Assembly: GCA_947632455.1 (NCBI GenBank)
Contig: CANRPK010000013.1
Location: 1 to 32,946 of the forward strand
DNA from: an uncultured Bacilli bacterium
GTDB lineage: Bacteria; Bacillota_I; Bacilli_A; RF39; UBA660
DNA: 32,946 nt
Direction of reading: 5' to 3'
Shown here: one piece after another, positions 3,291 to 9,472 of the stretch
How positions within the stretch are numbered: position 1 is the first letter of the stretch
How the letters are laid out: the number at the start of each line of letters is the position of its first letter
The notes under the pieces: generated by a model
The model's input: the letters and a program-made list of their open reading frames with translations, nothing else
Database searches by the model: none
Told to the model about the DNA's origin: nothing
Made by a program: the position numbers and the translations under genes

Positions 3291-3368
3291 AAAGATAGGT
3301 TGCCCTATCTTTTGATAATATATCTTGTCTATACTTGGAATAAGAAAGCAGTATAGACAAGTTTTTTT
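3291..3368. terminator. Bidirectional double-hairpin terminator, copy 1
   Basis: Two hairpins share this gap. The first (AAAGATAGG 3291-3299 with CCTATCTTT 3304-3312) is followed by T when read on the minus strand, so it ends the 504-residue protein gene. The second (11-bp stem, 3324-3334 with 3351-3361, 16-nt loop) is followed by seven T on the plus strand, so it ends ferredoxin transcription. The same 81 bases recur at 5511-5591 with one change, in a loop. Confidence 0.8.
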
Positions 3369-3371
3369 ATG
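3291..3371 (+). repeat. 81-bp direct repeat, copy 1 of 2
   Basis: Identical to 5511-5591 except for C/T at 3303/5523. The spacing of 2220 bases is the period of the tandem module made of surface-protein gene plus regulator gene, so this repeat marks the edge of the duplicated unit. Confidence 0.9.
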
Positions 3372-4881
3372 CATTAGTATTTACTATAAATGGATTGGAT
3401 GATTTACCATTACCTCCACTAAATTCAATATCGGCATTTAGATTTATTACTGGACGCACAGCAGGAAGAGCGCTATTCACGCCCGCAGCGTTGAGGGCGC
3501 CATCATCATGCACACGGAGCACGTAAGCATACTTACCAGTGATATTATAGTGAAACGGAGACATTGTCCAATAGTATTGATTTGTGTATAACCAATAGTT
3601 AGTTCCCACTGTTCCTCCAAAGCCTCCGGCCATTACTACTTCATCACTTGTAATAAGTCCTACTGGGTTTGCAAGTACTTCATTACCTTTGCCTGAACCA
3701 CTTGTTGTAAATAAATCTCTTGCTAAGGCTTTTGGATCTATTTCATCAAAACTATCGAAACCTTCTTCTTCGGTTGGATCTGTTCCGGGCATCTTTACCC
3801 CACATTTTAATGTTGGATATTGATTTTTTCTCCAGCCACCAGCCGGAACTAATCTTGATGCTGGTGCATATCCACTTGCTGACTGTCCTGTACCATCACC
3901 ATTATATCCGCTCCAGTTTCCTTTTACCACTACTCTATCGTTACACCATCCTGTACTTCCATCTAAGTAATCGGTATAATCATTCATTGCTCCTGTTCCA
4001 CTATACCAAGTATCAACAGCTTGAGCTATTGTACTCGGATTAGAGTTTGAATGAGTTTCTTCATAACTTGGATTTGGTTTTTCTTCTGTATGTGCTGTTC
4101 CATAATAATATCCTACATATGTATTGTCATCATTTGGAAATGATTTGTAAGTAACGTTACTTACAGCATTTGTTGTTCCTCCCTCAGTGGTTTGACAATT
4201 TGGTTCTTCACATTGATAAATCAATCTTAATGTTCCATCTCCATTTATTCTGATTATCCTCCATGTGTGATTTGCAAATGTTACCCAGTTATTTACATCT
4301 TCATTATTTCCTCTAAACACATAACTTGTTCCATAATTATCTGGGCTGGTATATAATTTTTCTTTTCCTTCTGGATTTTCAGTATTCTCATCGTATATTC
4401 CAGTAATGGGGCTTGGCATTTCATCTATAGTATATTTACTTTGTTTTGATGTTTCTAATTTACCTAACATTTCTCTTGCTAAACTATCAAAATATATATA
4501 ACACTTTGTTCCTTTTTCTGTTATGTTTCCTACATATATTGCATTATTTTTATATTCTATTTCTACTTCTTCTACCCTTTTACTACCTACTTCACAATAA
4601 CTTTTATTGCTTAGTTTATATCCAGTCGTTGGTATTTTATTTATATTAGTATATTTATAATCTTCACTTACATAATCATCTTTCTCTTGATACATCGCTA
4701 TTATATTTAGATCTGCTTTATTATAATTTATATTCCCACTTGCCAGTTCTATACTTTCTGTATTCCTATATCTTGCTAAACTCGTTATATAGTTTATTAC
4801 TATAAACAATATTGCACATACTATAAAGCCATATATAAATAATTTCTTATCTTTTTCTTTACTTAACCCTTTTAATTTCAT
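3367..4881 (-). CDS. Membrane-anchored surface protein with a DGR-type variable lectin-like C-terminus, copy 1
   Basis: A 504-residue protein with a charged N-terminus, one transmembrane helix (about residues 13-32) and a long extracellular part. A conserved pair of cysteines (SYCEV and GTKCYIYFD) probably forms a disulfide in the stalk. The central region is rich in Gly, Asn, Tyr and Trp. The last about 110 residues resemble the C-type lectin / formylglycine-enzyme-like fold of DGR variable proteins: NYWLYTN, YYWTMSP, a variable stretch, then AVRPVINL and a conserved end GGNGKSSNPF. About 31 codons (3460-3555) show the codon-position bias of adenine-directed diversification against the paralog at 5587. 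The ATG at 4881 follows AAAGGAAAG. The likely role is display of a diversified ligand-binding face; the ligand is unknown. The DGR assignment is inferred from the two-copy comparison. Confidence 0.8.
   Translation of the reverse strand: MKLKGLSKEKDKKLFIYGFIVCAILFIVINYITSLARYRNTESIELASGNINYNKADLNIIAMYQEKDDYVSEDYKYTNINKIPTTGYKLSNKSYCEVGSKRVEEVEIEYKNNAIYVGNITEKGTKCYIYFDSLAREMLGKLETSKQSKYTIDEMPSPITGIYDENTENPEGKEKLYTSPDNYGTSYVFRGNNEDVNNWVTFANHTWRIIRINGDGTLRLIYQCEEPNCQTTEGGTTNAVSNVTYKSFPNDDNTYVGYYYGTAHTEEKPNPSYEETHSNSNPSTIAQAVDTWYSGTGAMNDYTDYLDGSTGWCNDRVVVKGNWSGYNGDGTGQSASGYAPASRLVPAGGWRKNQYPTLKCGVKMPGTDPTEEEGFDSFDEIDPKALARDLFTTSGSGKGNEVLANPVGLITSDEVVMAGGFGGTVGTNYWLYTNQYYWTMSPFHYNITGKYAYVLRVHDDGALNAAGVNSALPAVRPVINLNADIEFSGGNGKSSNPFIVNTNA
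3451..3570 (-). other. Predicted DGR variable region 1
   Basis: The stretch runs in coding direction from TGGACAATGTCTCCG to GTGCGTCCA. Both edges are identical in the paralog, while codons between them differ almost only at positions 1 and 2. Examples, this copy against the other: TTT/GTT, CAC/CGC, CTC/TCC, AAT/CGT, AGC/GGC, GCC/TAC. All fit template codons of the form AAC or AAT whose adenines were replaced. The 80 bases 3461-3540 hold 46 G or C by hand count, far above the surroundings. Confidence 0.75.
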
Positions 4882-4903
4882 ATCTTTCCTTTCCTCAATA
4901 TTA

Positions 4904-4917
4904 TTAGAAATTCCTAA
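4904..4917. promoter_or_regulatory. Candidate operator, copy 1
   Basis: TTAGAAATTCCTAA is an inverted repeat with one mismatched pair, lying about 5-18 bases downstream of the predicted start of transcription of the surface-protein gene. It is conserved at 7133-7146. It is a natural candidate site for the divergent XRE regulator, which could block transcription or elongation there. Confidence 0.55.
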
Positions 4918-4928
4918 TTTATATTTAA

Positions 4929-4957
4929 ATTATAATATTTGTTATTATTAAAGTCAA
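4929..4957 (-). promoter_or_regulatory. SigA promoter of surface-protein gene 1
   Basis: On the minus strand TTGACT (4952-4957), 17 bases, then TATAAT (4929-4934). The whole block from the operator to the -35 box is nearly identical in module 2, while the rest of the intergenic DNA has diverged. Confidence 0.85.
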
Positions 4958-5030
4958 GAAAAAATTAACTATTACCTACCTTTAGTGTTATATTCTTTTT
5001 TTACATGAGAAAATTAATTTGGTGATATAA

Positions 5031-5510
5031 ATGGCTGTTTTTAATTACGCTATAGACTATTCAAGAATAAAAGATATAAGAATTAAAAATAATTTAACTC
5101 AGCAACAAATGGCTAATTTTTTAAATATTCAAAAACCTACTTATACGCAATTTGAAAATATGAAAAGAGAACTATTCCCTATTACTAAATTTAGTGAAAT
5201 TGCCAATTATTTTAATGTCTCAATGGACTATCTTTTAAAGTTATCTGATAATTCAAAAATTGATCTTGATAATAAAACTATTAATGTAAATGAAGTTGGC
5301 AAAAGACTTAAAGAAATTAGGAAAGAAAATAAATTATATCAAGATACTTTAGCTAAAAGTATTGGTTCTAGTGTGGCTTTAATAAGTGAATATGAAAATG
5401 GAAAAAGACTTATTTCTTTAACTTTTGGTTATGCTATATGTAAAAAGTATAATATTTCTATGGATTATTTATATGGTAAAACTAATAAGAATAAATATTT
5501 AAATAAATAA
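5031..5510 (+). CDS. XRE-family regulator with two helix-turn-helix domains, copy 1
   Basis: A 159-residue cytoplasmic DNA-binding protein with two complete HTH_3 (Cro/CI-like) domains in tandem. The first spans about residues 10-70 (SRIKDIRIKNNLTQQQMA...SMDYLLKLS) and the second about residues 88-150 (VGKRLKEIRKENKLYQDTLA...SMDYLYGK). Each has the usual recognition-helix segment followed by the FNVSMDYLL-type end. There is no sensor or dimerisation domain beyond these, so it may bind one long site or two half-sites as a monomer. The start ATG follows GGTGAT. It is divergent from the surface-protein gene, with 149 bases between them holding a promoter and a palindrome, and most probably regulates that gene. 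Repressor is the likeliest role; the signal is unknown. Confidence 0.85.
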   Translation: MAVFNYAIDYSRIKDIRIKNNLTQQQMANFLNIQKPTYTQFENMKRELFPITKFSEIANYFNVSMDYLLKLSDNSKIDLDNKTINVNEVGKRLKEIRKENKLYQDTLAKSIGSSVALISEYENGKRLISLTFGYAICKKYNISMDYLYGKTNKNKYLNK

Positions 5511-5588
5511 AAAGATAGGTTGTCCTATCTTTTGATAATATATCTTGTCTATACTTGGAATAAGAAAGCAGTATAGACAAGTTTTTTT
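5511..5588. terminator. Bidirectional double-hairpin terminator, copy 2
   Basis: Same structure as at 3291-3368. The short hairpin (5511-5519 with 5524-5532) serves the minus-strand gene. The long one (5544-5554 with 5571-5581, then seven T) serves the plus-strand regulator gene ending at 5510. The single base that differs from copy 1 lies in the loop of the short hairpin, so both stems are preserved. Confidence 0.8.
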
Positions 5589-5591
5589 ATG
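5511..5591 (+). repeat. 81-bp direct repeat, copy 2 of 2
   Basis: Matches 3291-3371 with one substitution. It separates module 1 from module 2. After module 2 the terminator is a different sequence, so the repeat marks one edge of each module only. Confidence 0.9.
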
Positions 5592-7101
5592 TACTAGTAT
5601 TTACAACAAACGGATTATCAGATTTACCATTACCTCCACTAAATTCGATATCAGCCTTCAGATTAACTACTGGACGCACACCACGAGTGCCACGCACGGC
5701 CGCAGGGGAGAGGTAGCCATCGTCACGCACACCGGACACATCAGCAGTGGTACCATTGAGATTAAAGCGAACCGGAGACATTGTCCAATAATATCGATTT
5801 GTGTATAACCAATAATTAGTTCCAACTGTTCCTCCGAAACCTCCAGCCATAGCGACTTCATCACTAGTAATTAATCCAACAGGATTTGTAAGTATTTCGT
5901 TACCTCTACTTGAACCGGAAGTTGTGAATAAATCTCTTTTTAAAGCATTAGTATCTATTTTATCAAAAGAACTAAAACCTTCCACATCTGTTGGATCTTC
6001 TTCAGGCATTACAACACCACACTTTAATGTTGGATATTGATTTTTTCTCCATCCTCCACCTTTTGCAATCAATCTTGATGCTGGGGCATATCCACTTGCA
6101 GATTGACCAGTACCATCGCCATTGTAATTATTCCAATTTCCTTTTACTACTACTCGATCATTACACCATCCTGTACTTCCATCTAGATATTCAGTGTAAG
6201 CATTCATTGCTCCTGTTCCACTATACCATTCATCAACAGCTTTTGCTATATTACTTGGTGTTGAGTTTGAATGAGTTTCTTCATAACTTGGATTTGGTTT
6301 TTCTTCTGTATGTGCTGTTCCATAATAATATCCGACATAAGTGTTATCATTATATGGCTCTGATTTATATGCACTTGTTCCTATTTGAGTTTGTTCACCT
6401 TCAGTTGTTTGGCAATTTGGCGTTGCACATTGATATATTAATCTTAATGTACCATCTCCATTTATTCGGATTATTCTCCATGTATGATTGGCAAATGTTA
6501 CCCAGTTATTTACATCATCATTATTTCCTCTAAATACATAACTTGTTCCATAATTATCTGGACTAGTGTATAATTTCTCTTTTCCATCTGGATTTTCTGT
6601 TTCTGCATTATATTGTCCAGTGATTGGGCTTGGCATTGCATCTATGATATATTTACTTCCTTTTGATGCTTCTAGTTTCGCTAACATTTCTCTTGCCATA
6701 CTATCAAAATATATATAACATTTTGTTCCTTTTTCGGTTATGTTTGTTACACCTAATGTTCCTTCTTCATAACTTATATTTATATCTTGAATTGGTTTTC
6801 CACTTACTTCACAATAACTTTTATTGCTTAATTTATATCCAGTCGTTGGTATTTTATTTATATTAGTATATTTATCACTATCACTTACATAATCATCTTT
6901 TTCTTGATACATGGCGATTATATTTAAATCTGCTTTATTATAACTTATATTTCCACTTGCTAGTTCTATACTCTCTGTATTTCTATATCTTGCTAAACTT
7001 GTTATATAGTTTATTAATATTACTAATCCTATAGTTAGTAATATCCCTATTATTACTCCCTTTACTTTGGAGGTATTATCCTCCAACTTTTCTAATTTCA
7101 T
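5587..7101 (-). CDS. Membrane-anchored surface protein with a DGR-type variable lectin-like C-terminus, copy 2
   Basis: A 504-residue paralog of the protein at 3367-4881 with the same layout: one transmembrane helix (about residues 13-31), a stalk with paired cysteines (SYCEV, GTKCYIYFD), a Gly/Asn/Tyr-rich middle and a lectin-like end. The segment just after the anchor (SLARYRNTESIELASGNI) is identical in both. Differences cluster between the two stalk cysteines, around residues 230-250, and in the C-terminal variable stretch. In that stretch this copy reads VRFNLNG...VRDDGYLS where copy 1 reads FHYNITG...VHDDGALN, and it is one codon shorter. The last residues (GGNGKSDNPFVVN) are again conserved. 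The ATG at 7101 has AAAGGGA about 11 bases upstream. It probably binds a different ligand from copy 1, under control of its own regulator. Confidence 0.8.
   Translation of the reverse strand: MKLEKLEDNTSKVKGVIIGILLTIGLVILINYITSLARYRNTESIELASGNISYNKADLNIIAMYQEKDDYVSDSDKYTNINKIPTTGYKLSNKSYCEVSGKPIQDINISYEEGTLGVTNITEKGTKCYIYFDSMAREMLAKLEASKGSKYIIDAMPSPITGQYNAETENPDGKEKLYTSPDNYGTSYVFRGNNDDVNNWVTFANHTWRIIRINGDGTLRLIYQCATPNCQTTEGEQTQIGTSAYKSEPYNDNTYVGYYYGTAHTEEKPNPSYEETHSNSTPSNIAKAVDEWYSGTGAMNAYTEYLDGSTGWCNDRVVVKGNWNNYNGDGTGQSASGYAPASRLIAKGGGWRKNQYPTLKCGVVMPEEDPTDVEGFSSFDKIDTNALKRDLFTTSGSSRGNEILTNPVGLITSDEVAMAGGFGGTVGTNYWLYTNRYYWTMSPVRFNLNGTTADVSGVRDDGYLSPAAVRGTRGVRPVVNLKADIEFSGGNGKSDNPFVVNTST
5671..5787 (-). 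other. Predicted DGR variable region 2
   Basis: Partner of the stretch at 3451-3570, bounded by the same identical edges. It is three bases (one codon) shorter. The 80 bases 5681-5760 contain 51 G or C by hand count. Against copy 1, 12 differences fall at codon position 1, 13 at position 2 and 3 at position 3 over 31 aligned codons. Confidence 0.75.
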
Positions 7102-7260: not shown

Positions 7261-7710
7261 ATGAAAAACAAAAACTATGAACTAGACTATTCAAGAATTA
7301 AAAGTTTACGTTTAGATAAAGGTTTAAGTCAAAAAGAAATGGCTAGTATTTTAAATATTAATCAGTCTACTTACTCAAAGTTTGAACTTAATAAAGCTAT
7401 GATATCAATTAAAGTTTTAAATAATATTGCTAATTATTTTAATGTTTCTTTAGATTATCTTTTAAATATTTCTAATAAAAAAGGTAATAATGGTAATAAA
7501 GATATTGATGTTAAAATTGTTGGTGAAAGATTAAAAAAGATAAGACAAGATAAACATTTATATCAAGAAACTTTAGCAATGGATTTGGGAACTAGTCATT
7601 CATTAATTAGTGAATATGAAAATGGAAAAAAATTAATTTCACTAGCTTATGCTTATGCAATATGTAAAAAATATAATATTTCTTTAGATTATTTATATGG
7701 AAAAAAATAA
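7261..7710 (+). CDS. XRE-family regulator with two helix-turn-helix domains, copy 2
   Basis: A 149-residue paralog of the regulator at 5031, again with two tandem Cro/CI-like domains (about residues 8-70 and 87-149) and the same ending SLDYLYGK. The second domain is the better conserved between the two (LYQ.TLA...LISEYENGK), while the first differs more in its recognition region. The two regulators may therefore share one half-site and differ in the other. The ATG follows TTTGGTGAA, and the 20 bases before it resemble those before copy 1. Divergent from surface-protein gene 2, it probably controls that gene through the palindrome at 7133-7146. Confidence 0.85.
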   Translation: MKNKNYELDYSRIKSLRLDKGLSQKEMASILNINQSTYSKFELNKAMISIKVLNNIANYFNVSLDYLLNISNKKGNNGNKDIDVKIVGERLKKIRQDKHLYQETLAMDLGTSHSLISEYENGKKLISLAYAYAICKKYNISLDYLYGKK

Positions 7711-7762: not shown

Positions 7763-8623
7763 TTATATTTTTTGACAAATTCCAGTTATTTGGTAAGTAT
7801 TTATAACTTCATAAGATAATTTATTATCTTTTATTGTATATACTCTTTCTTCTAATATGCCTGTATCAGTTGCTAAACTATTTTCATCAAATATAGGAAT
7901 TAAATAATATATTTTATTATTTTCTATCTTCATAAAGAAACCATCTTGTGCGAATGTTTTTCTATTAAAAGCTTTTTTATATAAAGGATCTACATCTGAA
8001 GCAAATTTACATGGAACATTATCGGCCATTAAAATATTAAAAGCATTGGGATTTGATACATTATAAGGGCTATTATTTAAATTCTTAGTAATTAATTCTA
8101 ATTTGTCATTAAATAAATAACCATTTAAATTATCTCCATAATCAGTTGCTACATCATCTAAAATTAATAGATAATTTTTTTGATCTTCTCCTCTTATAAT
8201 ATAAAAATTATTTTCATTAAAATCTTCATTTACTTTTTCTTCTGTAAATTCATTTATACTTTCTACATAGCTAGAATAAAAATTATAATCTTTATAGTTT
8301 CCATCTATTTCACGATCAGTCCGAAACATTATATGGTCTTCATATTCATTATAATTAAACTCTAAATTCATTGTATTTTTTTTACCATTTAATACTATTT
8401 CATATTCTTGTACTATTTTATCATTTTCTTTTTTGGTATCGACTAATTTTACTTTATCTTCTAGTTGTTCATTTGCACTATTATCTTTATTAGTATCATT
8501 ATTAATTATAGTTCCATTATCATTAATCTTATTATTTTGATAATTATTATACATAAAGTATCCTTCAAATCCTAAAACTCCCAAGACTACAACTAATATT
8601 ACATATAAAAATTTATTATTCAT
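7763..8623 (-). CDS. Membrane-anchored extracellular protein, function unknown (paralog A)
   Basis: A 286-residue protein. One transmembrane helix (about residues 4-25) is followed by a disordered Asn/Asp/Lys linker (about 26-60) and a presumably extracellular domain. It is a close paralog of the protein at 8648-9472: the first about 83 residues differ at only about eight positions, and the segment IYYLIP...ERVYTIKDNKLSYEVINTYQ is shared, but the central part is largely different. The N-terminus has no lipobox cysteine, so this is a signal anchor rather than a lipoprotein. AAGGAG lies before the ATG, and the gene follows its paralog after 24 bases, so the two form one operon. No known family is recognised; an ORF on the opposite strand (8180-8365) is a shadow. 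Confidence 0.7.
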   Translation of the reverse strand: MNNKFLYVILVVVLGVLGFEGYFMYNNYQNNKINDNGTIINNDTNKDNSANEQLEDKVKLVDTKKENDKIVQEYEIVLNGKKNTMNLEFNYNEYEDHIMFRTDREIDGNYKDYNFYSSYVESINEFTEEKVNEDFNENNFYIIRGEDQKNYLLILDDVATDYGDNLNGYLFNDKLELITKNLNNSPYNVSNPNAFNILMADNVPCKFASDVDPLYKKAFNRKTFAQDGFFMKIENNKIYYLIPIFDENSLATDTGILEERVYTIKDNKLSYEVINTYQITGICQKI

Positions 8624-8647: not shown

Positions 8648-9472
8648 TTAACACATTTCTCGCATTTGATAAGTATTTAAGATTTCATAAGATAATTTAT
8701 TATCTTTTATTGTATATACTCTTTCCTCAATTTTACCTTCTTCACAAGCTCCAGTATAAGATAAATAATATATTTTATTATCTTCTACTTTAGTTCTAAT
8801 TTGGCATACGCCTTCACTACAAAGACCAAAGTTATCTTTATACCAAAAATCCCCTAGATTTTCACAATTCTCATCTACACATAAGGATGTATAATACTCA
8901 AATCCTAAAAAGTAGGCATCTTCGGGATTTTGTGATTTAATATTTTCTAAATTATCATTTAAAACATATAGAAAGTAAGAATTACCTATTGGAGCAAAAT
9001 CTATTTTATGGATGGTTAAATAATTTTTATTATCTAGGCCTTTTATTATATCAAAATTATTTTCATTAAAGCTATTATTTATATAGTCTTTATCCATATA
9101 CTTTTCTTGATTATTATCTAAATTACAATTAGAATAGTAATCACTATTTATACAATAGCTTTCTATATCTTCTCCACCAAAACCATTTTCATAACTATTA
9201 AAACTATAAGTGAGAGTTAAATTATTTTTCTTACCATTTAATACTATTTCATATTCTTGAATTATTTTATTATTTTCTTTTTTCGTATCGACTAATTTTA
9301 CTTTATCTTCTAGTTGTTCATTTGAACTATTATCTTTATTAGTATCATTATTAATTGTAGTTTCATTATCATTAACCTTATTATTTTGATAATTATTATA
9401 CATAAAGTATCCTTCAAATCCTAATACTCCCAAGATTGCAACTAATATCACATATAAAAATTTATTATTCAT
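8648..9472 (-). CDS. Membrane-anchored extracellular protein, function unknown (paralog B)
   Basis: A 274-residue paralog of the protein at 7763-8623 with the same N-terminal anchor (MNNKFLYVILVAILGVLGFE), the same Asn/Lys/Asp linker and the same C-terminal block ending in SYEILNTYQ. Its central region is different and carries several cysteines (SYCINSDYYSNC, SLCVDENCENLG, GLCSEGVCQIRTK, GACEEG), which suggests disulfides outside the cell; paralog A has few. The ATG follows AAGGAG and leads the two-gene operon. A TATAAT lies about 40 bases upstream of the start, without a convincing -35 box. Function unknown. Confidence 0.7.
   Translation of the reverse strand: MNNKFLYVILVAILGVLGFEGYFMYNNYQNNKVNDNETTINNDTNKDNSSNEQLEDKVKLVDTKKENNKIIQEYEIVLNGKKNNLTLTYSFNSYENGFGGEDIESYCINSDYYSNCNLDNNQEKYMDKDYINNSFNENNFDIIKGLDNKNYLTIHKIDFAPIGNSYFLYVLNDNLENIKSQNPEDAYFLGFEYYTSLCVDENCENLGDFWYKDNFGLCSEGVCQIRTKVEDNKIYYLSYTGACEEGKIEERVYTIKDNKLSYEILNTYQMREMC

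Follow-up and report, generated by a model that had tools for sequence, protein, structure and literature searches.

Diversity-generating retroelements (DGRs) are known as systems in which one template serves one or a few targets; the DGR of Bordetella phage BPP-1 has one template repeat (TR) beside its reverse transcriptase (RT) and one target. Among larger systems, Treponema denticola genomes with a complete DGR contain one TR and 2-7 targets (PMC4891356, Table 1), Thiohalocapsa PB-PSB1 carries nine DGR loci with 15 targets and 21 variable regions (VRs) (PMC10907252), and Trichodesmium erythraeum has two DGR-RTs with 18 TR/VR-like loci (PMC8867640). The part of PMC6642488 considered here gives examples of DGRs with two to six TRs and reports a single TR in about 80% of multi-VR DGRs; arrays of self-contained template units were not found in that part. 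The window analyzed here is a whole contig (C13) of 32,946 nucleotides from a metagenome-assembled genome (MAG) of uncultured Bacilli/Mycoplasmatota (G000; 1.54 Mb, 126 contigs, 94.5% complete). Judging from sequence, two of its genes are very probably targets of a DGR that acts in trans from many templates.

The system resembles the BPP-1 DGR in its RT family, its Avd protein, the adenine-specific TR-to-VR differences and the lectin-fold target, but its template cassettes, about 26 in number, are remote from the RT and have -10 boxes of their own, and its targets number about 34. As in the T. denticola DGR, lectin-fold targets across a bacterial chromosome appear to be altered in trans (PMC4891356). 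A large multi-target repertoire with some trans action is also found in PB-PSB1 (PMC10907252) and Trichodesmium (PMC8867640), whereas in the present lineage a single RT locus seems to supply 10-69 targets in each genome via template arrays. More than one TR per DGR is a property shared with the multi-TR systems, as far as the considered part of PMC6642488 describes them. The system thus reads as a DGR by every mechanistic feature that can be tested on sequence, although its layout and scale differ from those of known DGRs; in a literature coverage that is incomplete, neither template arrays nor this many targets were found for any published DGR.

Both target genes, gene 1 at 3367..4881 and gene 2 at 5587..7101 (minus strand), are open reading frames (ORFs) of 504 residues, gene 1 with a hydrophobic segment in the N-terminal and a lectin-like domain in the C-terminal part. 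Their VRs run from ATGTCTCCG to GTGCGTCCA in coding sense, at 3451..3564 and 5671..5781 on the same strand; a preliminary description had located these stretches properly, but their ends are corrected here from 3570 and 5787. Each VR shows an excess of differences at codon positions 1 and 2. Our recount of the 31 aligned core codons gives exactly the 28 differences described earlier, 12/13/3 at codon positions 1/2/3, and the third-position bias ascribed to the flanking codons is real, with 11/7/30 differences over 92 codons (Fisher p = 9.7e-6 against the core). Nearly all variable codons of the two genes share a final C or T, as expected if AAC/AAT codons had been mutated at their first two bases, and one of the two cores has an extra codon. 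The G+C content is 0.52 and 0.59 in the cores, compared with 0.34 in the genes and 0.26 in the window; a GC-rich core is therefore confirmed, while the 57% and 64% quoted before depend on the choice of the 80-bp samples. The identical borders, likewise claimed previously, are real and correspond to the cassette ends.

The nonsynonymous excess between the two genes is also what positive selection on ordinary paralogues would give, in which positions 1 and 2 diverge with no DGR at all. We regard this as having a practically negligible probability, since noncoding copies with exactly the same borders, the A-specific direction of the differences, and the presence of RT and Avd speak against it, and the templates refute it.

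When VR1 was used as a DNA query against the genome, about 50 matching places were obtained, comprising both coding VRs and noncoding cassettes. The latter match the VR-like core and have no coding flanks, and about 26 of them are distinct: 12 on C20, six on C35, three on C9, two on C37, and one each on C10, C38 and C6. Most stand in head-to-tail arrays (C20:22676-26118, C35:167-1584 and C9:30561-31251) and the others singly, far from the RT. The C20 cassettes are spaced by ~250-370 bp and continue up to the contig end; there may therefore be more of them than counted. The expectation of a template with the same flanks as the VRs was thus borne out, except that it is not a single one. For VR1, the best single cassette is C9:30881 with 22 mismatches (10 at a cassette A, 4 at a VR A, 8 at neither), and for VR2 it is C9:30561 with 25 (10, 5 and 10, respectively). 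Two C20 units, 25033 and 25337, have identical cores and leaders, which suggests a recent tandem duplication or an assembly effect.

A cassette is ~300 bp long and is composed, from 5' to 3', of a -10-like box, the leader GGTTAATCT, the core, the core end GTGTGCGTCCA and a 3' module containing ATATCC, a small hairpin and GGATACAAGATTAATC. A terminator-like hairpin that carries a T run usually comes last. The -10 hexamer was detected in 73 of 89 cassettes from ten genomes, and in 52 it lies 6-7 nt ahead of the leader, which makes the leader the probable start of transcription. Helix P1 is formed between the leader and the 3' AGATTAATC. Pairing holds in 94% of cells across 63 distinct leader/3' pairs and falls to 51-54% when the sides are slid by one base. 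The covariation of P1 amounts to 36 two-sided changes, compared with 13.3 +/- 2.8 after shuffling of the 3' sides (0 of 1000). A second helix, UAUCC/GGAUA, shows a compensatory change in two cassettes. Neither a matching Rfam family for two cassette arrays nor an exact copy of the cassette 3' motif in IMG/VR was found. In several cassettes the leader joins the core directly at its middle (C35:1584, C35:1035, G061 L160-L162 and G065 L164); such 5'-truncated forms could have arisen by incomplete complementary DNA (cDNA) or by deletion, and would leave the 5' part of a VR unconverted.

A DGR-type RT, for which a search had been proposed, is encoded together with Avd on contig C29 of the same genome. 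Three genes lie in a row (locus L018): a MutS_I-like gene (4479-4886; PF01624, E=4e-5), Avd (4870-5223) and the RT (C29:5207-6325). Avd, an accessory protein that is typical of DGRs though not universal among them, matches NF033474 (E=8e-9), phrog_3206 'Avd protein of DGR' (E=1.4e-13) and PF22296 bAvd (E=3e-9); of these, the NCBIfam and Pfam hits score below the curated cut-offs of their families. The best PDB profile match of the RT, 8ub7_A (a 328-residue RT, E=5.3e-42), which we take to belong to the BPP-1 DGR series, is far ahead of the group II intron RTs (3e-20). In addition, the RT has the motifs YMDD and GLPIGNMSSQ, in which LPIGNMSSQ replaces QGxxxSP. The MutS_I-like protein might blunt or guide the mismatch repair of mutated cDNA. 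Two targets upstream on C29 tie the RT locus to this genome. In the usual DGR layout, which does not define the mechanism, the TR adjoins the RT; here the search for cassettes gave no match on C29 and placed them elsewhere, so the system counts as a DGR variant. Other RTs of the bin, on C36 (L019), C90 (L021), C64 (L022) and C42 (L020), were set aside, as they have phage- or mobile-element-like neighbours or resemble group II intron RTs. Close to the RT of C90 is a 291-residue protein ending in WWERSPHR...VAPAFRV, perhaps a phage DGR.

To describe the transfer from cassettes to VRs, we used a copying model that reads each VR from the cassettes and allows switches between them, and a conserved codon pair served to pick out recently converted VRs beforehand. 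The mutation rate at A is 0.33 against 0.07/0.12/0.06 at C/G/T in G000, 0.50 against 0.11/0.05/0.06 in the relative G059, and 0.36 against 0.05/0.02/0.03 in another relative, G060, i.e. 3-16 times the rates of the other bases across the three genomes. In the reverse direction, from VR to cassette, A shows no excess in G059 and G060. Comparison of 45-nt pieces gives A lost/gained from cassette to VR of 167/77 in G000, 407/30 in G059 and 302/47 in G060, although the pieces overlap and the p-values of that test are therefore too small. The excess substitution at template adenines proposed earlier as a test is accordingly present. Assignment of each whole VR to one cassette yields a weak A excess (231 cassette-A against 179 VR-A mismatches), because the VRs look mosaic and several are old. 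A mosaic was scored as superior if it was better than 95% of simulated single-template copies, which is the case for 13 of 13 VRs in G000, 15 of 17 in G059 and 14 of 14 in G060. The cassettes are hence putative templates of the target VRs with A-specific, directional copying, and we hold the DGR reading as a whole with high confidence.

Mosaic VRs, and cassettes that are silent, partial and arrayed copies, are also what RT-independent gene conversion would produce, with the cassettes as silent DNA donors like those of Borrelia vls, Neisseria pilS or Treponema tprK. Copying from silent cassettes proceeds without base-specific mutation; here the differences are adenine-specific and directional, falling on cassette adenines with a clear direction in G059 and G060. 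Furthermore, the cores are rich in AAC/AAT, the RNA helices around them are conserved, and an RT-Avd locus exists in the same genome. Gene conversion of this kind therefore seems very unlikely.

Close relatives of the RT (66-82% identity) occur in uncultured Bacilli/Mycoplasmatota MAGs, many titled as gut or animal samples, and the 17 intact ones compared form one clade. Cassettes are present in 20 of the 20 genomes reached through the close RT, with 1-19 per genome, and their cores are AAC-rich TRs, classic ones in G059 and G060. Targets number 10-69 per genome in 19 of these genomes (G059, G060, G066 and 16 others; G075 was left out of the scoring). Around the close-relative RT loci, searched with flanks of up to 10 kb, there was no cassette match, and no convincing AAC-rich TR was seen beside the RT in the loci searched.

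In more distant genomes of the same family, whose RTs are ~41-51% identical, an AAC-rich TR mostly adjoins the RT. The same query scores 0-10 targets in them, but divergent targets may escape it. These cis-TR DGRs have a related RT in common with our system, as well as a TR of comparable build with a leader helix and a 3' module, but differ in scale: G019 has exactly one TR, located next to the RT, and a single VR, while G012, an apparent intermediate layout, contains two TR modules along with about five VRs. By eye, the leader of several cis TRs is able to pair with a 3' stretch, and weak R1 matches lie just after or near the TRs in L093 and L090. From these features, the DGR RNA architecture looks older than the template arrays.

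The TR beside the RT in sister genera raises the alternative that all targets are served by a classic DGR with a single TR, this TR having been lost from the assembly and the cassettes being dead copies or decoys. The assembly is indeed fragmented and its cassettes are A-poor; a single AAC/AAT-only TR was sought in the genome and not found, all cassettes there being partly A-depleted. However, every genome with a close RT has cassettes, and the close-RT loci searched, with flanks of up to 10 kb, contain neither a cassette match nor a convincing AAC-rich TR next to the RT. Covariation shows conservation of the closing helix and of the 3' module, implying that the cassettes are not dead, and distinct cassettes account for distinct parts of the VRs. 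We consequently assign very little probability to a lost single TR.

Several points nonetheless weigh against a DGR acting in trans from many cassettes. All evidence consists of sequence and models. The A fraction of the G000 cassettes is 0.198, compared with 0.25-0.34 in relatives, and the non-A mismatch rate is higher; being A-poor, the system of this genome may work slowly or be partly burnt out. Some of the targets seem to be old and to have ceased being converted. The mosaics could partly originate from templates absent in an assembly of 126 contigs. Finally, the bin holds the further RT contigs described above, unlike the RT of the system, which are probably phage, mobile element or contamination.

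The templates themselves also appear to diversify. Over 45 within-genome cassette pairs, the 3' modules differ by 3.7% on average and the cores by 24.9%; this roughly sevenfold faster divergence of the cores implies that templates change as well as targets. The core differences in these pairs fall 282/253/138 at codon positions 1/2/3, though the cassettes are untranslated. Three cassettes of G066 have identical 3' modules and cores differing at 22-25% of bases. Cassette-to-cassette differences are A-biased in seven of the seven genomes tested, weakly in G059. We see about an even chance that the generator is two-tiered, with the machinery also rewriting cassettes by A-to-N mutation and segment exchange, so that the VRs would be mosaics of an evolving library. 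VR-to-cassette recombination could be a source of similar template diversity.

In the mechanism that we propose, the C29 locus would supply the MutS_I-like protein, Avd and RT, and small template RNAs would be transcribed from ~26 separate cassettes, arrayed and single. The 5' leader of each RNA would pair with its own 3' part, and the core would be followed by a structured 3' module. The RT would then copy the core into cDNA with random bases at adenines, and the cDNA would replace the matching ATGTCTCCG...GTGCGTCCA part of any of ~34 lectin-like genes by retrohoming. Differing and 5'-truncated templates, used in repeated conversions, would generate the mosaic VRs. The targets are presumably membrane-anchored, and may be located at the surface with a role in ligand binding or adhesion.

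The target family of G000 has 33 members by pattern and 34 by protein search, with a hydrophobic segment in the N-terminus. The lectin fold suggested earlier for the variable end is supported by prediction: the C-terminal 326 residues of target 2 gave an AlphaFold model with a predicted local distance difference test (pLDDT) score of 96.6, whereas the full-length target modelled with 28 close paralogues reached 40.7. In VIA-align, the top match of the model is a domain of 9qa6 (Z 13.1), followed among lectins by Legionella Lcl (Z 6.2) and many C-type lectins (Z 4-5); these lectin Z values are modest, yet lectin-like proteins make up nearly all matches listed. Foldseek alone gave only one significant fold match, and a PDB sequence search revealed no relative of the target protein. 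The C-terminal domain containing the VR is thus predicted to have a C-type-lectin-like fold, as is typical of DGR targets, the variable residues sitting in strands at about 260-296 of the model. Together with the RT and Avd, the templates and the A-concentrated differences, this fold supports the assignment of both genes as DGR targets. Open frames of ~800-1030 codons with two target-domain matches ~1.1 kb apart occur in G060 (C13, C5, C27 and C54) and G062 (C69), which gives two VRs per protein.

In a lineage of small-genome gut bacteria, the template RNA thus appears to have become separate from the RT locus, the templates to have been multiplied into arrays and the targets to have increased to 10-69 genes per 0.9-1.5 Mb genome. 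The outcome would be comparable to a combinatorial repertoire of antigen receptors or of antigenic variation, with a reverse transcriptase as the driving enzyme, and would define the DGR RNA as a compact closed element acting in trans. The genomes offer a natural series for studying template choice, from one TR with one VR, through two TRs with about five VRs, to many TRs with many VRs. Our results also suggest that DGR detectors seeking a TR beside the RT would miss such systems.

Each target gene of the window is accompanied by a divergent helix-turn-helix (HTH) gene on the plus strand, an XRE/RstR-type regulator (5031..5510; NF041951 RstR family, E=4e-24) for target 1 and a second XRE-type gene (7261..7710; identified as an ORF with a pattern match) for target 2. 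Across the genome, a divergent XRE-type HTH gene is found by match at 17 of 33 targets and by eye at about three more; a possible role is that of a switch choosing which surface protein is expressed. Just past the stop of target 1 lies an inverted repeat, CTTGTCTATACT...AGTATAGACAAG (3324..3361, unstranded), and the same repeat follows target 2 (5544..5581, unstranded). We considered it as a DGR cruciform, possibly the downstream hairpin, but its position after the stop and the presence of the motif downstream of only 7 of 33 targets make a terminator more likely, and it is probably one. Further along the window, 7763-8623 and 8648-9472 are tandem paralogues, membrane- or lipoprotein-like, with near-identical N-termini and divergent C-termini.

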